Shown here: in pieces, positions 1 through 10,523 of the stretch | Layout of the letters: every line of letters starts with the position of its first letter | Position numbering within the stretch: the first letter of the stretch is position 1 | Assembly: GCA_002937585.1 (NCBI GenBank) | Contig: PTKE01000013.1 | Coordinates: 1 to 37,655 of the forward strand | Length of the DNA stretch: 37,655 bases | Source of the DNA: Alphaproteobacteria bacterium MarineAlpha9_Bin6 | Lineage (GTDB): Bacteria; Pseudomonadota; Alphaproteobacteria; UBA7887 | Direction of reading: 5' to 3' | The notes under the pieces: model-generated | Seen by the model: the letters and a program-made list of their open reading frames with translations, nothing else | Told to the model about the DNA's origin: nothing | Database searches by the model: none | Position numbers and translations under genes: made by a program

Positions 1-832
1 TATTTTTTAAAAGTTCGTGAGCAACGAACCAGGCCATAGAACTTTCCAGTCCTGCATTACAAAACAGGATCAACTTGCCATTCATAGGTGCCCCGGCAGC
101 TGAGAATAGACGCTCTAATTGCTTGCGATCGCGAAATTTAAGACCGGCATTAACGGTCAACCAACTCATCGGCAAGTTTATCGCACCCGGTATTGTGCCT
201 GAACGGGAAAGCATCCAGGCACGATTGATTCCCAAAAACATGTCGTGACTGCGCACGTCGATTAATGGGGTTTTATCGTCTAAAGCAGTTTCCACGCCTG
301 CCCGCGACACCAGAAGTTCTGGCCGTGGTCGAGCGACGAACTCGGCGGCAGTTGGCTCATATATCCCGACATCGAAGTCTGCGGACCATTCGTCCATCCA
401 TGCCGGCAAACCGCCGTCCAGGATTGACACCGAATCGTGGCCGAGATGTTTGAAAGTAAGATAGATGCTGGTGGTTTCTGCGGCGTCGAATGGACCGGTA
501 CCAGAGCCATAGATGACGACTTGCGAGTTGTTACTGATACCAAGCCGACCAACTAGCGCTTCGAGCTGATCCATAGTCGGCATCATATGAGAGATGCCTT
601 GCTTCCTCGTACGCCAGCCATCCTTGTAGTAGTTGGTGTGGACTGCGCAAGGTATATGGGAGGCGCGATAGTTTTCCGCCGATCTTCGAACGTCCAGTAC
701 GGTTAGGTCCTCTGTGCAGACTTGTGGCTTTAGCCACGACACGTCTACCAAAGGGGTAGCGTCACTCGCTAGCGGTCCGTTAGAAAAGGAGAAAGTTACA
801 GCTGCTCCGATAAGAGCCATTATGCATTTCAT
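1..832 (-). CDS. Exported two-domain rhodanese (thiosulfate/3-mercaptopyruvate sulfurtransferase-like), 3' end outside window
   Basis: The frame is open from an ATG at 832-830 to the window edge (277 codons), so the C-terminus is missing. Residues 1-23 look like a short Sec signal peptide ending in PLAS. Two rhodanese domains follow. The first (about 26-150) has the LDVR and LDGGLPAW motifs but shows VVIYGSG where the catalytic loop would be, so it lacks the active Cys. The second (about 162 onward) has IDVR and the loop CNAGLES, with Cys258 as the likely persulfide-carrying residue. An inactive N-terminal and active C-terminal domain is the usual layout of this family, which moves sulfane sulfur to acceptors such as cyanide or thiols. 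The ATG overlaps the stop of the NosR-like gene as ATGA, implying translational coupling and a linked role. The periplasmic location is inferred from the signal peptide. Confidence 0.9.
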   Translation of the reverse strand, partial: MKCIMALIGAAVTFSFSNGPLASDATPLVDVSWLKPQVCTEDLTVLDVRRSAENYRASHIPCAVHTNYYKDGWRTRKQGISHMMPTMDQLEALVGRLGISNNSQVVIYGSGTGPFDAAETTSIYLTFKHLGHDSVSILDGGLPAWMDEWSADFDVGIYEPTAAEFVARPRPELLVSRAGVETALDDKTPLIDVRSHDMFLGINRAWMLSRSGTIPGAINLPMSWLTVNAGLKFRDRKQLERLFSAAGAPMNGKLILFCNAGLESSMAWFVAHELLKN

Positions 833-3201
833 TGCGGGGAAGCCGTGGCTGGTATCGGCAAACCACTTGGTCCAAGTGTTACCTCGGGCATTGAACGATT
901 CTTTCTTTTTGCAGCCGCCACTAATGGTGGGCAGGCGTGCTCGTCGTGATAAACGATCTGGCAATCCAGGCAGTAGAAACACTCAGACATGTTGATCTTT
1001 CCTGTCGGTTCGATCGCCGAGATGGGACATTTTTGCTCACACAAGTGGCAGGGACTCCCGCATTCGGTACGGCGTTTCAAAGGAGTTAACATCCGGAGTT
1101 TTCCTCCGATCGCCATTGCTGCGCCCAGAGGGCAGAAAAACCGGCAGAAGAAACGTTCGACAACAAGGCCAGCCGATAAAAGAGTCATAGCGTAGATCAC
1201 ATACGGCCATTCGCGGGCGAACTTTAAGGAAATTGCGGTTTTAAATGGTTCAACTTCAGATGCGATGCTGGCTGCTGTCATGGAGTAGAATGACAGCCCC
1301 ACTAGACCAATCAAGATTATATATTTTACTGGCCAGAGATACCTGTGTGTCGTTGGCGAGAGTTGTACTTGCGGCAACCTGCATGCTTGGGCGATTTTAG
1401 CCAGTAACTCCTGCATGGATCCAAATGGACAGAGCCAGCCACAGAAAATACCGCGGCCCCAAATAAAGAAAGTCGCTAACACGTACGTCATTAGTACGAT
1501 GATGAGTGGATCCGAGAGAATCACGTCCGGGTTGAAGGTCCCGAAGGCAGCCTGAATCCAGGTAAGAATATTTATTATGGTGACCTGGGCGCCAACCAGC
1601 CATCCCAACCAAACCAGGGTAAATAGCATGAATGCGTTACGCAGCCAGAAATAAAGCCTGGGCCGTCGGGTAAGTGGTTCCATGAACAATAAAATTGCTG
1701 TCAAGGATGCTAGTGCTGCAACCAGTATACCGATATTTATTGCTTGCACTTTCCAGGCTCGGAACCAAATCGGTTCGCTGTCCGACGCTATTACGTCGAG
1801 ACCAGTCGGTTCCAGGATATATTGTGATGACAACTCATAAGGCACTGAGAATATAGCTGTGTTTCCATTTTCGGTTTCGAACGGAATTTCCAGTCTCCAC
1901 GGCTTGAGGGGATCAACTCCTTCTGACGCCGGCAACCATAAAAGCCCTATTTCTGAAAATATGGGCTTATCTTTTCCGTGCAAGAATCCGAAATAGCGGA
2001 ACCAGTCTTTGGATAAGGTAAATGTCTTTTCTCCTTGGACGAGACGGAAGCGTTCGAACGGGCCGGTCGTGCTTTGTTGCATATCATGTAACGAGTAGGT
2101 GCCATTTGACATCATCAAGAGCACCAGGTCTTCTGCTGCGCGGCCGCTAATAAACAGATTGTACGATTGGTCACCCATGATACTGCGACCAATTGATGGA
2201 GGCGTTACCGGCGCTATATAGAGGTCGATAAAAGGTTTCTCACTAACTTTTTGCTCTGCAGCTTGGTGTCTCTCCTGTCGTCTATATCTTGGTGCGACTT
2301 CCTCTTGAACGAGACGTAGGCTATCGGGGACTTCTCGATGTGCGGAGACATCTATTCCCTGGGCGGCTGCTTCGGTTGTTGAAATTTTTAAACGCGCAAC
2401 AGAACCGGTTTCTACAAGGCTTGACCAGTCGATTTTATGATAAAGCGTCATATCCACCGCAGGTTGGTCGTTAAGTCTGAGGCCGTGCGCCCTTGCTGTT
2501 AAGCGAGCCGAGGTCAGGATTGCCTCGTTAAACAGGATGGCGCTAATGGTTGCTGCGCTGATCCCATCCAGAGTTCCGGAACCGCCTTCTGTTTCATCAG
2601 ATTGGCCACTTAAATATGTGATTTTTGTCAGGCTGACACGCCATGGTCGACGGATATCCACCCCGGAATACTGGTTACCGAAATTGGCCAACCCTCCGAG
2701 TAACAAGATGTCGATAATTGGTTCCTGGTGATCGAGGACTTTGGCGCCGGTCAAGTTTCCATCGAGCCCCAGGCCGACCGCGATTTGAAAGGGCAACGAG
2801 GAAAATCCCAACGATGGTACGGCGTCAACGGTGAGGAACATAAACCCCAGCAAGGTTTGGTCTTCGTAAATGGCTGACGCCGGTGGCTCGCCTTCCAGCC
2901 CGGACGAGCGAGTGGAGTTCGGGAAAAACTCTGTGCGTAGTTCTTCGGTCAGCCAGTCAGCGACCTTACCGGAATACCAGGTCGCCATATCGGGCTGGGG
3001 GATTTTTGCGTCGCCGTAGGCATCTTTTGTAGCCTCACGTACCCGATCCATCGCAGAACCGCCAGATTCTTCAGCAAAAACGGGTTGGCTGTAATTGGAC
3101 AAAAGTGAAATTATGAAACCGAATGCTGCAATGGCGGGCAAAACAAGGTTAGATCCACCACCAAAAGGTGAAAAGTGGAATGTTTTTTGTCTTATCAGCA
3201 T
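829..3201 (-). CDS. NosR/NirI-like membrane flavoprotein with polyferredoxin C-terminus (copy 1)
   Basis: From the chosen ATG at 3201 the product is 790 aa. An in-frame GTG at 3246 would add 15 residues, but the ATG gives a cleaner signal peptide ending near QPVFA and has GGAAGAAG upstream. After the signal comes a periplasmic FMN-binding domain (about 80-245). It contains the flavinylation-type motif DGISAATIS with Thr218 as the predicted phosphoester-FMN site. A long periplasmic stretch precedes several membrane helices (about 500-700) bearing two CxxxCP motifs (Cys587/591 and Cys686/690). The C-terminus has two ferredoxin-like clusters, CGSPCHLCEQKCP and CFYCLDC with a later CPP. This is the NosR architecture, in which electrons pass from quinol through FMN and Fe-S to periplasmic enzymes; known NosR proteins are slightly shorter. 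No nosZ is nearby, so the electron acceptor is unknown. The stop overlaps the rhodanese start. Confidence 0.9.
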   Translation of the reverse strand: MLIRQKTFHFSPFGGGSNLVLPAIAAFGFIISLLSNYSQPVFAEESGGSAMDRVREATKDAYGDAKIPQPDMATWYSGKVADWLTEELRTEFFPNSTRSSGLEGEPPASAIYEDQTLLGFMFLTVDAVPSLGFSSLPFQIAVGLGLDGNLTGAKVLDHQEPIIDILLLGGLANFGNQYSGVDIRRPWRVSLTKITYLSGQSDETEGGSGTLDGISAATISAILFNEAILTSARLTARAHGLRLNDQPAVDMTLYHKIDWSSLVETGSVARLKISTTEAAAQGIDVSAHREVPDSLRLVQEEVAPRYRRQERHQAAEQKVSEKPFIDLYIAPVTPPSIGRSIMGDQSYNLFISGRAAEDLVLLMMSNGTYSLHDMQQSTTGPFERFRLVQGEKTFTLSKDWFRYFGFLHGKDKPIFSEIGLLWLPASEGVDPLKPWRLEIPFETENGNTAIFSVPYELSSQYILEPTGLDVIASDSEPIWFRAWKVQAINIGILVAALASLTAILLFMEPLTRRPRLYFWLRNAFMLFTLVWLGWLVGAQVTIINILTWIQAAFGTFNPDVILSDPLIIVLMTYVLATFFIWGRGIFCGWLCPFGSMQELLAKIAQACRLPQVQLSPTTHRYLWPVKYIILIGLVGLSFYSMTAASIASEVEPFKTAISLKFAREWPYVIYAMTLLSAGLVVERFFCRFFCPLGAAMAIGGKLRMLTPLKRRTECGSPCHLCEQKCPISAIEPTGKINMSECFYCLDCQIVYHDEHACPPLVAAAKRKNRSMPEVTLGPSGLPIPATASPQ

Positions 3202-3315
3202 TTTTAGGGCCACTTCTTCCACGCCAAAAACCCGGGACACTAACACGCTTAAGCAGCCTTTCCACCCTTCGGTTTTACTTTTCCGCCTTTACGTTGGTTT
3301 TGACAGTAATATCAT

Positions 3316-3344
3316 TTGTCATTGGACTGTCTCTGCTCTACAAT
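3316..3344 (+). promoter_or_regulatory. Sigma70-like promoter for the amidohydrolase gene
   Basis: TTGTCA (3316-3321) and TACAAT (3339-3344) are separated by exactly 17 bp and each differs from consensus at one base. Transcription would begin near 3351, leaving a leader of about 110 nt before the ATG at 3461. The call rests on sequence alone. Confidence 0.5.
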
Positions 3345-3460
3345 TTTGCTTGGTTGCAGGAAGTTTTTGCAGCTACGCATTTTCTATAATGTGTCGACAT
3401 AGAAACTAAAATGATCAATCAGCCGGGCGCGTCTGGTTGTTGGTCGAGGGAGGCTAAAGC

Positions 3461-4972
3461 ATGTCAACGTGGCTTAGCGAACGAGAAGAAGGATTAGTGG
3501 AAGGTGCAGAGGAGCTTGAGTTTCAATCTCCTGTACCAACACAGATCGTGTCAAATGGCGAGTACTTACCTCCGCCACAAAGTCCGAAACAAAAGCAAGT
3601 TGAAAACCGGATCAAAGAGTTAGCCGAAGAGAACAGCAAGTTTCTTGGGATGACTCGTCGGGAATATCTCATGACCAACTGCGGCATGGCTGCAGCGTTC
3701 TTGGCGATGAACGAGATCTATGGGGGCAACGTGTTCCAGGTAGATCCAGCAGAAGCACGGGATCCGGAGATGACGTTAGAGCGGGCCAATGCGCTCTCTG
3801 GTCAGTTTATCTTTGATGACCAAACTCATTTCCTGCGTGATGATTTCGCGCATGAAGAAATCACGGGCCTTGGCGAGTTTGCCGCCGAGCACTGGAATCC
3901 GGTCCTCAAGGAAGAAGGTATCAGCTTAACGCGGTATAAGTTCGAGAACTACATTCGCGAACTATGGTTCACCGCAGATACCAAGATGGCGCTGCTGTCA
4001 GGCGCGCCGTTTGATGATCCAACCTGGTATCTTTTGTTCAATGACCAGATCATGAGTGCTTGTAATACTGTCAACGACTTCGTTGGTGGCCAGCGGATGT
4101 TGGGCCATGCTGTCATCACGCCCGGTCAGCCTGGCTGGATGGACACCGTTGATGAGACCATCAGCAATAACGATCCAAACATGGTTTCCTGGAAGTCGTA
4201 CACAATCGGCGATCCACTCGCTCCGTCGAAGTGGCCATGGCGTTTGGATGATGAAAAGATTATGTATCCCTTCTACGAGAAATCGTTGAAGGCCGGCATA
4301 AACACAATTTGTGTCCACAAGGGGCTGATGCCGCCGGATTACGAGCAGTCGTTCAAGGGCCTGTGGCAGTACGCAACTGCGTGGGATCTCGAGAAGGCCG
4401 CAAAAGATTGGCCGGACATGCGCTTCGTTATCTATCACACGGCGTTGCGTCCGTTCCTCGAGTTGCCTGACCAAGCTTGGGCAGAATTCGAGGCGACTGG
4501 TCGCATTAAGTGGGCGACCGATGTGGTTGAGGCAGCGCAGGCTGCTGGGACTGGCAACATCTACGGCGAGATTGGTACCTCATTCGCCAATTCGGCGGTA
4601 GCGCATCCGAAATTCTCGGCGGCGTTTATTGGTACGCTGGTTGCTGGTCTAGGTGCGGATCACGTCGTCTATGGTTCGGATACCGTATGGTATGGTTCGC
4701 CGCAGTGGCAGATTGAAGCCATGCGTCGTCTCGAAGTGCCGGGCGATATGCAAGAGAAGTATGGCCTGCCGGCGCTTGGTGGTCCGAACAGCCTGACCAA
4801 ACAGGCGATCTTCGGCCTCAATTCAGCTCGCCTTTACAACCTCGGCATGACGAATGTCGAGCTCCAGAACTTGAACTTCGGCGAAGACAAGCTGGCTGAG
4901 TTGGGCAGAGAATACCGTGAACGCGGTGGTGGACCGACCAACAAGCGTTATGGTTTTGTCCGTACTGCTTAA
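3461..4972 (+). CDS. Amidohydrolase-family (Amidohydro_2-like) TIM-barrel metal hydrolase with an internal Tat-type signal
   Basis: The 503-aa product starts at an ATG preceded by GAGGGAGG. A hydrophilic 60-residue leader precedes TRREYL (65-70) and a short hydrophobic run (about 72-84), which together resemble a Tat signal with a long n-region. The catalytic domain (about 114-465) shows FDDQTHF (118-124), CVHKG (284-288), VIYHTALRP (323-331), YGEIGTSF (368-375) and VVYGSDTVWYG (402-412). These match the strand-end metal ligands of the ACMSD/Amidohydro_2 branch, with H286, H326 and D407 as likely ligands. The usual first HxH reads QTH. The substrate is unknown. The gene is divergent from the NosR-like gene and upstream of three secreted paralogues, so a periplasmic partnership with the redox proteins is plausible but inferred. 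Confidence 0.85.
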   Translation: MSTWLSEREEGLVEGAEELEFQSPVPTQIVSNGEYLPPPQSPKQKQVENRIKELAEENSKFLGMTRREYLMTNCGMAAAFLAMNEIYGGNVFQVDPAEARDPEMTLERANALSGQFIFDDQTHFLRDDFAHEEITGLGEFAAEHWNPVLKEEGISLTRYKFENYIRELWFTADTKMALLSGAPFDDPTWYLLFNDQIMSACNTVNDFVGGQRMLGHAVITPGQPGWMDTVDETISNNDPNMVSWKSYTIGDPLAPSKWPWRLDDEKIMYPFYEKSLKAGINTICVHKGLMPPDYEQSFKGLWQYATAWDLEKAAKDWPDMRFVIYHTALRPFLELPDQAWAEFEATGRIKWATDVVEAAQAAGTGNIYGEIGTSFANSAVAHPKFSAAFIGTLVAGLGADHVVYGSDTVWYGSPQWQIEAMRRLEVPGDMQEKYGLPALGGPNSLTKQAIFGLNSARLYNLGMTNVELQNLNFGEDKLAELGREYRERGGGPTNKRYGFVRTA

Positions 4973-5022
4973 CTGAGTGACCGGAAGCGCCTTAGCGTAA
5001 CGGTCAAAGGACTGACATGGAG

Positions 5023-5056
5023 AAGGTCAGGGGCGTTTGTCCTTGGCCTTCTTCCA
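5023..5056 (+). terminator. Imperfect stem-loop after the amidohydrolase gene
   Basis: GAAGGTCAGG and CCTTGGCCTTC form an imperfect hairpin with a loop of about nine bases, followed only by TTCC rather than a T-run. It may be a weak terminator or a processing or stability element between the amidohydrolase and the small secreted genes. Confidence 0.3.
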
Positions 5057-5178
5057 CATCGGGGCGATGATTTAGTTTCAGGGCTTGAGTTCATGTGGGG
5101 TGTTGCAAGCGAAGATATCGCCCTTTAAGGACCGATGGTTACTTTGAAGCGGCAGGATGCCGCGATAGGGAGGATGTC

Positions 5179-5709
5179 ATGAAAATTGGTTTTGGTGTGG
5201 CTGCGGTTGTCGCATTTCTTGCCGCATTTGCCACCGTTCCAGTGACGGCGGCTGAAATATTGACCCTGAAGGCAACCTCAGGACGCTTTAAGATTCAGGG
5301 CGGCTTTTACCCAAATTATTTAGTGTTCCTAAAGGGGCTTGATGCCTCCACCATTGAAACTGATTGGGTGGATAAGGAATATTACGCGGTGCTCGATGTG
5401 CATGAAGGGCCGGAAGCAGGCCAAAGTGCGATTATGACGCTGAAAAAATCGAATGATCGAAGCCCTCAACCCGAATGGTGCAAAACCGAGGGCGGTGAAG
5501 AGTTTAAGGGAAAGGGCATTACCTGCTTGAAGGGAGCGGAAGGCTTTACCGAACAGCTTCGATTCAAGGTGAAGGTAAAATGGCCGGATTCTGCCGCCGC
5601 CTTACCCGCGGAATTACAGAACCGCACCTGGGCCGAATATCCAGAACTACCTGGCAGGAGAGAATCCGAAGAGCTAGGTCCATTCGACCTGCACATCGTT
5701 CTCGAGTGA
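5179..5709 (+). CDS. Small secreted protein of unknown family, tandem copy 1
   Basis: I chose the ATG at 5179 (176 aa) over an in-frame ATG at 5095, because AGGGAGG lies just upstream and this start matches the two neighbouring paralogues. Residues 1-25 form a Sec signal peptide (VPVTAA, then E). The mature protein is about 150 residues with a probable beta-rich fold and exactly two cysteines, in EWCKTEGG (Cys101) and ITCLKG (Cys116), likely a disulfide. Other conserved blocks are FLKGLDAS, WVDKEYYAVLDVHEGPEAGQS and LQNRTWAEYP. I do not recognise the family. It follows the amidohydrolase on the same strand and belongs to a three-gene tandem array. A role as a secreted partner or binding protein of the neighbouring redox system is inference only. 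Confidence 0.85.
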   Translation: MKIGFGVAAVVAFLAAFATVPVTAAEILTLKATSGRFKIQGGFYPNYLVFLKGLDASTIETDWVDKEYYAVLDVHEGPEAGQSAIMTLKKSNDRSPQPEWCKTEGGEEFKGKGITCLKGAEGFTEQLRFKVKVKWPDSAAALPAELQNRTWAEYPELPGRRESEELGPFDLHIVLE

Positions 5710-5842
5710 ATCTGCCAATAGCGGATCAGCGTCAGGGAGATAAGTCGTCTGCGTGGGACGCCCTGACGCGGGCCGGTGGTGCCATTCTTAAAATGCAGAT
5801 GATTATTTCGAGGGGGCGTCAGGCCGTGAGGGGGAGGATCTG

Positions 5843-6373
5843 ATGAGATTTGGATTTGGGGGAGCCGCTGTTGTCGCATTTCTTGCCACATTTGCCTCTG
5901 TTTCAGTAACGGCAGCTGAAATATTAACCCTGAGTGCTTCCGAAGGCCGTTTCAAGATTATGGGGGGCATGTACCCACGCTATTTAGTGTTCCTGAAGGG
6001 CCTTGATGCCTCCACCATCAAAACTGCTTGGGTGGACAAAGAGTATTATGCGGTGCTCGATGTCCATGAAGGGCCCGAAGCGGGCCAAAGTGTGATTATG
6101 ACACTCAAAAAATCGACGGATCGCAGCCCTCAACCCGAATGGTGTAAAACCGAGGGCGGTAAAAGCTTTGAGGGGAAGGGCGTAACTTGCTTGAAGGGAG
6201 CCGAAGGATTTACCGAACAGCTTCGATTCAAGACAAGGGTCAAATTCGCTGATTCCGCTGCCGCGTTGCCGGCGGAATTACAGAACCGCACTTGGGCCGA
6301 ATATCCAGAGATGCCTGGCAGGCGGGAATTTGAAGAACTGGGTCCATTTGATCTGCACATCGTTCTCGAGTAA
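5843..6373 (+). CDS. Small secreted protein of unknown family, tandem copy 2
   Basis: This 176-aa paralogue of the upstream gene starts with MRFGFGG behind GGGGGAGG. It keeps the Sec signal peptide (SVTAA), the WVDKEYYAVLDVHEGPEAGQS block and both cysteines (EWCKTEGG and VTCLKG). Differences from copy 1 are scattered across the length rather than clustered, with no frameshift or stop, so the copy looks functional. The 133-bp spacer to copy 1 is related to the spacer before copy 3. Family and function are unknown. Confidence 0.85.
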   Translation: MRFGFGGAAVVAFLATFASVSVTAAEILTLSASEGRFKIMGGMYPRYLVFLKGLDASTIKTAWVDKEYYAVLDVHEGPEAGQSVIMTLKKSTDRSPQPEWCKTEGGKSFEGKGVTCLKGAEGFTEQLRFKTRVKFADSAAALPAELQNRTWAEYPEMPGRREFEELGPFDLHIVLE

Positions 6374-6513
6374 ATCGGTTAAACTCGGATCAGTCAGAGG
6401 CCGAGCCGTTTGGGTCAGGAACGCTTCCGCGCGGTGGTGTGAACGGAGTATGATGGATTGGAGATGAAGACGATTACTAGGGGGCGGCAACATGCCGCGA
6501 CAGGGAGGAACTC

Positions 6514-7038
6514 ATGAGGTTTGGATTTGGCATAGCCGTAGTTGTTGTGTTTTTAGCCGCATTTACCTCTGTGCCAGTAACAGCGGCCGAAATTATGACC
6601 CTAAAGGCGAGCGAAGGGCGTTTCAAGGTTACGTTCTATCCGGACTACTTTTTGTTTTTAAAGGGGCTTGATGCCTCCGGCATCAAGACTGCCTGGGTCG
6701 ACAAGGAATATTATGCGGTGCTTGACCTGCATGAAGGGCCGGAAGCTGGCCAAAGTGTTATCGTGACGTTGAAGAGGTCGAGTGACCGTAGCCCTCAGCC
6801 GGAATGGTGCAAAACGGAAGGCGGTGAAAATTTCTCAGGCTTGGGTATTACTTGCTTGAAGGGAGATGAGGACTTTACGGAGCAACTCCGTTTTAAAGTC
6901 ACGGCGAAATACGCTGACTCTGCTGCCAATCTGCCAGCGGAGTTACAAAACCGTACTTGGGCTGAATATCCAGAAATGCCCGGCCGACGCGAATTTGAAG
7001 TACTAGGTTCATTCGATTTCCACATCGTTCTTAACTAG
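6514..7038 (+). CDS. Small secreted protein of unknown family, tandem copy 3
   Basis: This 174-aa paralogue has the same signal peptide pattern (VPVTAA) and RBS (AGGGAGGA). It is two residues shorter in the region after GRFKV and more diverged at the C-terminus (VLGSFDFHIVLN). Both cysteines (EWCKTEGG, ITCLKG) and the YYAVLDLHEGPEAGQS block are kept. It is the last gene of the unit and is followed within 25 bp by a strong hairpin terminator. Function is unknown. Confidence 0.85.
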   Translation: MRFGFGIAVVVVFLAAFTSVPVTAAEIMTLKASEGRFKVTFYPDYFLFLKGLDASGIKTAWVDKEYYAVLDLHEGPEAGQSVIVTLKRSSDRSPQPEWCKTEGGENFSGLGITCLKGDEDFTEQLRFKVTAKYADSAANLPAELQNRTWAEYPEMPGRREFEVLGSFDFHIVLN

Positions 7039-7058
7039 CCTATTCGCTCTGACGGAGA

Positions 7059-7090
7059 CGGTGGCGGCATTTACCGCCACCGCCCCTTTT
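7059..7090 (+). terminator. Rho-independent-type terminator after the triplicated genes
   Basis: A perfect 9-bp GC-rich stem CGGTGGCGG / CCGCCACCG with the loop CATTTA is followed by CCCCTTTT. It lies just downstream of copy 3 and before the convergent apbE-like gene. Confidence 0.75.
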
Positions 7091-7160
7091 ATGCGGGCCG
7101 TTATTTTTTCTCAAACGCTTTCTTGAGACCGAAAAAGCGACCAAGTTAGCTTAGAAATGT

Positions 7161-8210
7161 TCAGCTAATAAAGCGGTGTTTATTTCCCTCGGGGGTGGTA
7201 ATCACTGCCTTCACTCCACCGATTTCCTTAACGACGCTCTCCACCTGTGAGGTAGGGAGGACAAACAAAGCTGTAGACATGGCATCTGCTGTGGTTGCTC
7301 GCTTCGTGATTACCGATGCAGACACATGGTGCGTCGCTGGTTTTCCGGTTCGAGGGTCGAATAAGTGGTGATAATGGCCATTGCCGTCGAATACAGTACC
7401 GGATCCGGCTGAAGTCGCTACCGATTCATCTACGAGTTCGATAGTTTCCGTGGTCTGGTTCGGATCTTGCGGGCTCGCGAGCCCAATGCGCCATGGTCTG
7501 CCATCGGGGTGGTCATCAAGCGCCCGAGTTTCCCCCAACTCTACAAGTACTTGGCGGATTCCTTGATCACGTAAAAGATCCGCTACTCGATCCGTAATGT
7601 AACCCTGCGCAACACCGTTCAAGGTTACGGCCATTCCGGACTTGGCAAAACGCACACTGCCACCTGTGATATCAATCTTTCGATAGTCGACCAGGTTCAG
7701 TGCATTCCTGATGTCCGTGTTGGACGGACCAGTTTGGATGCCGGGTTGCTTGGAAAAATGCTCCGAAAACAAAAGCCACAAAGGCTGCACCGTAACGTCG
7801 AAAGCGCCGTTAGTTTGATCGCCAAACCGGCTGCTGCTGGAAAGCAAATTCAAAAGGTCTGCTGCGGGCGTTTCAATATGGCCTTCTCTGTTTAGAATGG
7901 ATAGATCACTGTCGGCACGATGTAGACTAAATACGCGTTCCAAGCGTTCGATCTCATCGATTGCAGTGGTGACGATCGTTTGGGCTGCACTTCGATCATA
8001 ATGTGCCAATGTAAGTTTGGCAGGAGCTCCCAATGCCGTACCTTCCCAAGTATAGAGTGATGCACCTTCAGGCAGTGCTATTGCCCCATTTTTAGCAACT
8101 AGCGTGCAGCCGGCGGCTGCACCGAATAGCGTCAGGGCGCGCCGGCGTGAAACGCTACGAGTTCGTTTCGGAGGAGAGGAGGAGGATATCGGCAAGGTGA
8201 AAATAGACAT
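7161..8210 (-). CDS. apbE: FAD:protein FMN transferase, ApbE/NosX-like, Tat-exported
   Basis: This 349-aa ApbE-family protein attaches FMN through a phosphoester to Thr/Ser of extracytoplasmic flavoproteins. The N-terminus has a twin-arginine motif (SRRRALTLF) and a hydrophobic run ending in GAAAGC, which could also be a lipobox-like site. Tat export is typical of NosX, the ApbE homologue that flavinylates NosR. Family motifs are visible: FDVTVQPLW, the VTLNGVAQGYITDRV block, GETRA, SVATSAGSG, HLFDPRTGKPA and ATTADAMSTALFV. The start follows GAGGAG and sits 9 bp after the stop of the second NosR-like gene, so they form one operon. Its likely substrates are the two NosR-like proteins here and possibly others. 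Confidence 0.92.
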   Translation of the reverse strand: MSIFTLPISSSSPPKRTRSVSRRRALTLFGAAAGCTLVAKNGAIALPEGASLYTWEGTALGAPAKLTLAHYDRSAAQTIVTTAIDEIERLERVFSLHRADSDLSILNREGHIETPAADLLNLLSSSSRFGDQTNGAFDVTVQPLWLLFSEHFSKQPGIQTGPSNTDIRNALNLVDYRKIDITGGSVRFAKSGMAVTLNGVAQGYITDRVADLLRDQGIRQVLVELGETRALDDHPDGRPWRIGLASPQDPNQTTETIELVDESVATSAGSGTVFDGNGHYHHLFDPRTGKPATHHVSASVITKRATTADAMSTALFVLPTSQVESVVKEIGGVKAVITTPEGNKHRFIS

Positions 8211-8219
8211 AAGGTCTCC

Positions 8220-10523
8220 TCAGTCAGTTGGGAGCTCAAGGTTGAGGTTGGACCCCGACGCTTGCTCGTTACGCTTACGGCGAGCGATCAAGGGCGGACA
8301 CTGATGATCATCGTAATACATGACTTGGCAATCAAGGCAATAGAAGCATTCGTTCATATCGATCCGGCCACTCGGATTTATAGCGCCCACTGGGCAAACT
8401 GTTTCGCAACGGGTGCAGGGGTTCCCACACTCCACGCGACGTTTTAGCCAATCAAACATGCGAACTCGGCCAAGAATTGATAGTCCCGCGCCGAGCGGAC
8501 ACATGAATCTACAATAGAAGCGTTCAACGAACAGGCCAATACCCAATAGGACTATGGCGTAGGTTACCGCTGGCCAGGGAGCATTGAAGCGAAAGGTAAT
8601 CGCAGCTTTAAAGGGTTCCACCTGCGTGCCGGCAATGGCTAGATCGAAGGAGTAAAAGGTTAAGCCCAGGAGGCTCAGGAAAATAAGATATTTAATTGCG
8701 AACAATCGCTCTTGAATAGCATTCGGAATGTTCAACTGCGGAATTTTGAGTGCGCGGGCGATTTTATTCAGCAATTCTTGTAGCGCGCCGAACGGGCACA
8801 GCCAGCCACAGAAGATAGCGCGTCCCCACAGAAACAATCCAAAGGCGACGAAAGCAGAAACTATAAAGATCAGGGGTTCGACCAGAAAAAATCCCCAATC
8901 AAAGTCGTCAACGAGGGATTGGGCAATATTGAGAAGATGGATGATACTGACTTGCGCGCCGACATACCAACCCATCCAAATGAGAACCCATGCAAGAAAT
9001 CCGATTCTTACCCAACGGTGCAACCTTTTCCGACGCGCGATTGTTTCTTGCGCTGACAGAATAACAGTGAGGACAATTAGAGTGGCAAAAAGGGTTGCAA
9101 TTTGCTCTGGACGATTACGCCAAACACTTCGCCAGTCTATGCCTTTTGCGGCTTGTACGAGGCTCATTTCTACGCCAATGTCGGAGACGGTTTGGATTAG
9201 AGGTTCAGTTATAAAGCGATCTGGAACCCGGTACGGTAGGGTAAACATGGCAACACCAGCCGCGTTGCCATCTTTAGCACCTTCCATAAGCAATTCTAGC
9301 CGCCACGGTTGGGTCGGGTTAAAGGTGATGTCCGGTGTGAAAAAGAATAAGCTGATTTCGTTGAATTCAGGGCGTTCCTTCGCATGGATGAAAGGTAATT
9401 CCTTATGCTGGTCAATGTGCAGAGGGATCGTTGTGTCTCCCTGAACCAATTGAATTCGATCAAATATACCGGTCTCGTTTTGAGCCTCTAAATTCGACTG
9501 AAGTCCCGTGGACAGGCTAAATCCTTTGAAAGTGTTGCCTCGAAACGAATAATCGCCACTGGATAGAATCAGCAACAGGATATCATCGACGCCGCGGCCG
9601 GCCCGATATTGGTCGTACCAAACTTTATCCAGAAGATTAATACCGATCCCTGCTGGTGTGACCAAGGCCATATAAAGCTCAAAGTAAAGTTGTTCGTCCT
9701 TCCACGAACGCACATCTGAAGGTGGGTCGGCTTGAATATCCTCAAACGCACGCAGCACTTCCCCGTGGGTTAGAGAAAGGTGGCCTAGTGAGCCATCAAC
9801 GATCATTTCTGGCCAACTCATCGGGCTAAATTGGTCAATATCAAGCGTACGCCCAACGCTCCTGCCATCGATTAATTTAATACCTCGGTTACGGGCAATA
9901 AGGCGTGCCGATCGAACGATTGCATCACTAAAGACAACCGAGCTGGTTGTGGTGCGAGAGACTGCATCTACTTCGACCAAATCTCCCGCGTTTTTAGACG
10001 TGGTTCGTTGAGAAAATTTCTCGGCCTCCAAAGGCGAACCTGACATCGCGATCACGACGTTCACACCCTTACGGATGTCCAGGGCCGGGAACTGCGTCAA
10101 ATACTGATGAAAATCTTCGTCAGTCCTACCCAAAATCGCGATTGGTTCAACATGGTGCACTAGGCGCACGCCCTGTATGATACCGGCAAGATCCATGCCG
10201 ACGAGTATGTGGAATGGGGCTTTTGAGAAACCGACGCCGCGAACCAGGTCGTAGGTCTCAAAAACGTAGCCCAAAAGCGTATCTCCTTTGAAGACGGGGG
10301 CTGACGGGGGCACTCCTTCAACTTCCCCGTATCGCTCGGCGTTCGGGAATACCATTTCCAGCAATTCTGGATTTAGATATTGGGCAAGATTGGAGGTGGC
10401 TTCGGGTGTTAATTCCTCGACCCTATTGGCAGCAAGCGCCGAGCCCGAATAAAGGATTCCTTCAAGCAGGATCAGGATCACGAATGCCCTGAGGGCAGGA
10501 ATTGTATGGCGGATGCGTTTCAT
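8220..10523 (-). CDS. NosR/NirI-like membrane flavoprotein with polyferredoxin C-terminus (copy 2)
   Basis: The 767-aa product has a clear Sec signal peptide (residues 1-32, ending GSALAA) and a periplasmic FMN-binding domain (about 70-215). The predicted FMN-accepting site reads DAVSRTTTS around Thr192, where R-T replaces the usual G-A or A-A before the Thr. Membrane helices (about 475-690) carry CGWLCP (Cys572/576) and CRFMCP. The C-terminal ferredoxin clusters are CGNPCTRCETVCP and CFYCLDC with a later CPP. It shares its whole architecture and many motifs with copy 1 but is clearly diverged, so it is an old paralogue rather than a recent duplicate. It is first in an operon with apbE. I see no clear Shine-Dalgarno before the ATG. 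Role and acceptor are unknown; quinol-to-periplasm electron transfer is the family precedent. Confidence 0.9.
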   Translation of the reverse strand: MKRIRHTIPALRAFVILILLEGILYSGSALAANRVEELTPEATSNLAQYLNPELLEMVFPNAERYGEVEGVPPSAPVFKGDTLLGYVFETYDLVRGVGFSKAPFHILVGMDLAGIIQGVRLVHHVEPIAILGRTDEDFHQYLTQFPALDIRKGVNVVIAMSGSPLEAEKFSQRTTSKNAGDLVEVDAVSRTTTSSVVFSDAIVRSARLIARNRGIKLIDGRSVGRTLDIDQFSPMSWPEMIVDGSLGHLSLTHGEVLRAFEDIQADPPSDVRSWKDEQLYFELYMALVTPAGIGINLLDKVWYDQYRAGRGVDDILLLILSSGDYSFRGNTFKGFSLSTGLQSNLEAQNETGIFDRIQLVQGDTTIPLHIDQHKELPFIHAKERPEFNEISLFFFTPDITFNPTQPWRLELLMEGAKDGNAAGVAMFTLPYRVPDRFITEPLIQTVSDIGVEMSLVQAAKGIDWRSVWRNRPEQIATLFATLIVLTVILSAQETIARRKRLHRWVRIGFLAWVLIWMGWYVGAQVSIIHLLNIAQSLVDDFDWGFFLVEPLIFIVSAFVAFGLFLWGRAIFCGWLCPFGALQELLNKIARALKIPQLNIPNAIQERLFAIKYLIFLSLLGLTFYSFDLAIAGTQVEPFKAAITFRFNAPWPAVTYAIVLLGIGLFVERFYCRFMCPLGAGLSILGRVRMFDWLKRRVECGNPCTRCETVCPVGAINPSGRIDMNECFYCLDCQVMYYDDHQCPPLIARRKRNEQASGSNLNLELPTD

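Follow-up and report, generated by a model that had tools for sequence, protein, structure and literature searches.

Two NosR-like membrane proteins flank a conserved gene unit, comprising a Tat-type amidohydrolase and a family of small secreted proteins, in a marine alphaproteobacterium without N2O reductase, which suggests that NosR-type electron transfer has been turned to another purpose. The amidohydrolase gene (amido) and the secreted genes (sec) form a firmly conserved unit of their own, the amido-sec unit, and its distribution suggests that it may be functionally linked to the two NosR-like proteins (NosR1 and NosR2). The best reading of the locus suggests that a recruited electron-transfer pair serves a periplasmic hydrolase unit. 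As far as the tools used can show, the amido-sec unit, its phyletic coupling to NosR1 and NosR2, and the expansion of NosR-like proteins in this lineage are new.

Layout of the locus

The locus was found in a metagenome-assembled genome (MAG) of 2.38 Mb, which is 98.6% complete. The window, i.e., the whole stretch of 37,655 nucleotides that was analysed, is the entire contig C22, and since the rhodanese gene runs past the contig start the left end of the locus is missing. Close relatives of the locus are present in the MAGs MarineAlpha9_Bin7 and Rhodospirillaceae SAT1449 and in one uncultured alphaproteobacterium. Open reading frames and profile searches recovered every gene named in the original prediction, each at the place where it had been claimed (Table 1).

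Table 1. Features of the locus, with positions in the window
Feature	Position	Strand	Evidence
Exported double-domain rhodanese (sulfurtransferase), truncated by contig start	1..832	-	Pfam Rhodanese, 73.5 bits
NosR1, NosR-like membrane flavo-iron-sulfur protein	829..3246	-	NCBIfam NosR model, 559.8 bits; motif DGISAAT
amido, Tat-type Amidohydro_2 protein	3461..4972	+	Pfam, 32.1 bits (cut-off 26.4)
sec1, small secreted protein with two conserved Cys	5179..5709	+	AlphaFold model beta-rich, pLDDT 76
sec2, recent sec1 paralogue (85%)	5843..6373	+	Paralogue comparison
sec3, older paralogue; orthologue of the second copy in G003/G004	6514..7038	+	Paralogue and orthologue comparison
Terminator-like hairpin ending the amido-sec unit	7059..7082	+	9-pair stem, 8 G-C
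ApbE, FAD:protein FMN transferase	7161..8210	-	Pfam, 224.9 bits; single match in the genome
NosR2, NosR-like, motif DAVSRTT	8220..10523	-	NosR model, 618.9 bits; ApbE 9 bases away

The amidohydrolase gene and sec1-3 are each preceded by a GGAG-type ribosome-binding site and are separated by gaps of 133-206 bases; the start of sec1 is more likely at 5179 than at 5095. Terminator-like hairpins follow the last sec gene at five loci (the window, L024, L032, L055, and L056), and none was evident in the stretches of L023 and L025 that were inspected. The terminator scan as a whole was at chance level, so the hairpin after sec3 would carry no weight by itself; it counts because relatives have hairpins at the corresponding position. 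A promoter scan gave 12 matches against 11.4 expected, no more than chance, and was left unused. A model in which all these genes form one operon was rejected: the NosR genes run on the strand opposite to the amido-sec unit, which closes with a hairpin, meaning that the locus consists of several transcription units.

On the minus strand, the start of the rhodanese gene overlaps the NosR1 stop as ATGA, and the ApbE gene lies directly downstream of NosR2. ApbE passes the Pfam model with a wide margin (cut-off 25.6 bits), and its activity is predicted from sequence. Among 12 genomes, one ApbE match each was obtained in ten, two in G292 and none in G006, which is 63% complete. The C-terminal rhodanese domain retains the active-site loop CNAGLES, and orthologues of the protein share 80% identity in G003/G004 and 70% in G005. 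Another rhodanese near NosR1 in G001 (L107) was rejected as the same gene, with 26% identity and no signal peptide evident. At two related loci (L025, 3742-4698; L023, 2-421) a gene for a fused SoxYZ-like carrier is convergent with the rhodanese gene; the contig of the window stops short of this position. The L025 protein scores 135.7 bits against TIGR04557 (quinoprotein-associated SoxYZ-like carrier), just under the cut-off of 140 bits, and has GGCS in its arm in place of GGCGG. No SoxYZ-like gene was found beside the G005 rhodanese. The rhodanese and its convergent SoxYZ-like neighbour give a hint of sulfur chemistry.

NosR1 and NosR2

Both proteins align along the whole NosR model (NF046105), yet they score far under its curated cut-off of 1000 bits, and they are clearly related to NosR as judged from these alignments. 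A motif check identified CxxxCP twice in each protein and a double 4Fe-4S motif towards the C-terminus, and the Pfam Fer4_5 scores (60.8 bits for NosR1 and 61.2 for NosR2) lie above the cut-off of 22. These features uphold the NosR architecture proposed earlier. Its flavin domain is less straightforward: FMN_bind scores of 19.4 (NosR1) and 15.1 (NosR2) fall under the Pfam cut-off of 22, and the domain is therefore assigned from the alignment and from the motifs DGISAAT and DAVSRTT. When these are compared with the ApbE target consensus DxxSGAT, the aspartate and the FMN-bearing threonine are retained and the middle of the motif is altered, so that covalent flavinylation of NosR1 and NosR2 is graded as likely only. 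In a model protein, a G-to-A change in the flavinylation motif cut flavinylation to about half (PMC12052999). The phylogenetic tree places NosR1 and NosR2 in two separate clades (SH-aLRT 100 for both), which are distinct from nos-linked NosR as well as from the proteins of ped-type clusters.

NosR, together with NosX, passes electrons to N2O reductase and is usually encoded beside nosZDFYL. A NosZ protein query against the genome of the window and 11 relatives gave nothing but CuA-domain matches, none of them above 27 bits, compared with 1495 bits for a control plasmid, and a family search of the same genome found no nos cluster. The observation that nos genes are missing around the locus thus extends to the rest of the genome. 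A search with Pfam nos_propeller had no match anywhere and was set aside as evidence.

The amido-sec unit and its distribution

The amidohydrolase is read as a Tat-exported periplasmic hydrolase, and its enzymatic activity is predicted only. Its metal-ligand pattern comprises QxH, H286, H326, and D407, in which glutamine replaces the usual first histidine; more distant homologues have histidine at this position. Nearly all of the 24 relatives whose sequences cover the twin-arginine motif and an AEA cleavage-like site retain them, and this conservation extends to homologues with about 42% identity. A sequence search of the PDB returned no solved relative. Foldseek matches of the predicted model (pLDDT 70) belong to the decarboxylase/hydratase branch of PF04909, with E values down to 4e-7. 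The fold and the His/Asp metal-site pattern are shared with the Amidohydro_2 decarboxylases and hydratases (gamma-resorcylate decarboxylase, LigY, LigJ, and isoorotate decarboxylase), from which the protein differs in its Tat-type export, its long N-terminal extension and the glutamine in place of the first histidine. To our knowledge, redox chemistry is not among the known activities of this family.

The three sec proteins share 78-85% mutual identity and have signal-like N-termini. Two cysteines and one histidine are invariant across the family alignment. In comparisons among paralogues and orthologues, third codon positions diverge several times more than second positions, which indicates purifying selection and that sec1-3 are real genes. 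A fourth copy, on contig C65 (L020, 9736-10247), is decayed, with stop codons and a frame change. The sec sequences matched nothing in Pfam, NCBIfam or the PDB, and a search for homologues on plasmids was empty. The sec model had no Foldseek match below an E value of 0.001, and a VIA match (best Z 7.3, to unrelated beta domains) was dismissed as a common arrangement.

Across 385 sampled genomes of the class, sec occurs in five, every one with an amidohydrolase of the amido clade. Eight sec-bearing genomes were compared, i.e., four of the genus, G007 from another genus of the family, and three of a different family (f76); in all of them sec lies downstream of, and on the same strand as, an adjoining amido clade member of at least 72% identity, the one in G002 being a contig-edge fragment. 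The amidohydrolases that adjoin sec form one clade (tree support 100/99). At two f76 loci (L054, 10946-12596; L056, 7474-9097) the amidohydrolase gene is divergent from a gene for a secreted protein with an SH3-like end, and two further genes there resemble, by eye, sulfo/phosphonopyruvate decarboxylase subunits.

NosR2 and NosR1 flank the amido-sec unit with the same order and orientation both in the genus and in G007, where fragments matching those two clades are present. A neighbourhood conserved without nosZ had been set as a check on the locus, and it is kept in both. The homologous locus of G005, which represents a third genus, adjoins a stretch syntenic with positions 17.7-31.9 kb of the window, and carries ApbE (plus strand), an amidohydrolase (minus strand, 72%) and the rhodanese (plus strand, 70%); NosR2, sec, and NosR1 are absent from it, nor were they found in the rest of this 99%-complete genome. 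Among the 12 genomes, sec occurs only where NosR1 or NosR2 and an amidohydrolase of the amido clade also occur. Near-complete sec genomes (above 90%, where contigs allow) all have NosR2, and all have NosR1 except G002, in which the contig breaks at that point. G001 and G008 have NosR1 (G001 also NosR2) but lack sec, and the only amidohydrolase they have is more distant. This suggestive coupling pattern comes from twelve related genomes and represents essentially one co-loss or gain.

The claim that the genes make up one system is not supported. In three f76 genomes the amido-sec unit stands without NosR, ApbE or rhodanese genes within 20 kb, and NosR genes also occur without the unit, as NosR2-ApbE in G001 and as a NosR2-NosR1 tandem in G007 (L104).

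Candidate functions and related systems

NosR and PceC are membrane proteins in which Fe-S clusters and a covalent periplasmic FMN support a periplasmic reductase. As proposed for these two proteins, electrons would cross the membrane through the Fe-S clusters of NosR1 and NosR2 to (or from) FMN, which ApbE would attach to their periplasmic domains. The amidohydrolase would share this pathway. The sec proteins would be the soluble partner that joins it to the NosR pair, a role suggested by their invariant cysteine pair and by their restriction to genomes with NosR1/NosR2 and the amidohydrolase. On the substrate side, the rhodanese would indicate a sulfur-containing compound. Whether the NosR pair and the amido-sec unit contribute to one and the same process is evenly balanced, and any particular chemistry for the locus is considerably less probable than that. 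The altered flavinylation motifs of NosR1 and NosR2 and the absence of redox chemistry from the known repertoire of Amidohydro_2 proteins weigh against a shared process, as do the opposite strands and the separate occurrence of the two sets of genes. One specific version has NosR1 and NosR2 forming a heteromeric, ApbE-dependent complex, whose redox activity on the sec cysteine pair or on a carried ligand would drive or complete a periplasmic reaction begun by the amidohydrolase. This version is unlikely; if true, it would represent a redox-coupled hydrolase system without a described counterpart, and one of several uses to which these marine bacteria put duplicated NosR-like proteins.

The main competing explanation is that the two sets of genes are neighbours only, the NosR pair and ApbE being a general electron-transfer module and the amido-sec unit an unrelated periplasmic hydrolase that shares the locus. 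The opposite strands, the terminator-like end of the amido-sec unit, its position away from NosR genes in f76, and the NosR2-ApbE and NosR2-NosR1 arrangements without it are consistent with this explanation; the same nested order in two genera, the restriction of sec to genomes with NosR1/NosR2 and the amidohydrolase, and the joint absence at the G005 locus argue against it. Overall it is a real but tentative possibility, somewhat short of even. A role of NosR1, the rhodanese and the SoxYZ-like carrier as accessories to a PQQ quinoprotein (ped-type) or to Sox-type sulfur oxidation would account for the SoxYZ-like fusion that adjoins the rhodanese in L025 and L023, and would agree with the NosR-like/ApbE pairs in PQQ clusters on plasmids and with SoxC next to other NosR-like genes of the same genome. 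It is quite improbable, as the tree sets NosR1 and NosR2 well apart from ped-type proteins, no PQQ gene was recognised within the window, and the SoxYZ-like protein scores under its cut-off with an altered arm and has no counterpart beside the G005 rhodanese. Least credible of all is service to a nos cluster elsewhere in the genome: the closest named family is indeed NosR, but NosZ is missing from all 12 genomes, the one of the window being nearly complete, while the control was readily detected, and a function of NosR1 and NosR2 in N2O reduction was rejected.

The reading in which a recruited NosR pair serves the amido-sec unit also has to be set against described systems. NosR and NirI of nos and nir clusters resemble NosR1 and NosR2 in length, FMN-type periplasmic domain, the two CxxxCP motifs and the two C-terminal Fe-S motifs, and nos-linked NosR proteins on plasmids share about 31-41% identity with them; the model scores (560-619 against a cut-off of 1000 bits), the separate clades, the altered flavinylation motifs and the lack of nosZ distinguish the pair. 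Closer in organisation are the NapH-like flavinylation systems, of which 2465 clusters are reported, 1926 of them with an N-terminal FMN domain (PMC8238504, eLife 2021). Some of these clusters include nirS or exaA, the partners of most are unknown, and the systems are described there as modular. The present locus shares with them a Fer4_5 membrane protein with a putative N-terminal FMN domain, a nearby ApbE and no nosZ; a Fer4_5 protein is encoded in the apbE cluster itself, since NosR2 and ApbE are 9 bases apart. Given this description, orphan NosR-like/ApbE loci are already a recognised class, and the general claim is not new. The amidohydrolase with its small secreted family, the rhodanese and the paired paralogues go unmentioned in the text of PMC8238504 that was searched. 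No recognised oxidoreductase is encoded between or beside NosR1 and NosR2, where the amidohydrolase and the secreted family are found instead. The ped-type PQQ alcohol dehydrogenase clusters on plasmids (L142-L145) likewise have a NosR-like gene directly followed by ApbE, but they have pqq genes, a PQQ dehydrogenase and/or the cytochrome PedF close by, and their NosR-like proteins belong to a distant clade. Most flavinylated NosR/NapH-like electron-transfer proteins are without a known partner, and the amido-sec unit, which is compact and conserved and includes a new protein family, offers a candidate partner that is amenable to experiment.

The NosR-like family is expanded in this lineage, while ApbE stays at essentially one copy in each genome. 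The genome of the window has five NosR-like genes with its single ApbE; matches per genome number two to seven in family f1, where some are pieces of the same gene, and f76 genomes have four or five. With many NosR-like copies, one ApbE, no NosZ and recurring but varied partner genes, this single marine lineage offers a natural series for finding the targets of such proteins. A search of the open-licence literature found nothing that links NosR-like proteins with SoxC or with a periplasmic amidohydrolase.

In several genomes, NosR-like genes immediately precede the gene for a SoxC-type sulfite dehydrogenase (L019, 8875-15307 on contig C66; L120, L121, L125, L126, and L130), as a tandem NosRa-NosRb where complete and with a one-haem cytochrome c gene where the contig allows. 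The flavinylation motif is absent from NosRb in 6/6 sequences examined. Three f76 genomes (L116, 8459-12247; L117, 2593-6258; L118, 7825-11319) encode a protein of 1164-1262 amino acids that fuses two NosR-type membrane/Fe-S halves, with DGVRGAT in the second half only and a SoxC homologue at the same locus. This natural fusion suggests that the tandem NosR pair acts as a heterodimer. At four further loci (L018, 2-3862 on contig C49; L105, L114, and L134) a NosR-like gene is followed by a gene for a secreted protein weakly similar to PQQ-dependent sugar dehydrogenases, an arrangement conserved in the genus. G007 has a second NosR-amidohydrolase neighbourhood (L127, 1-3001 on contig C84), in which a co-directional gene for a distant amidohydrolase paralogue (29%) comes after a NosR-like gene of another clade.
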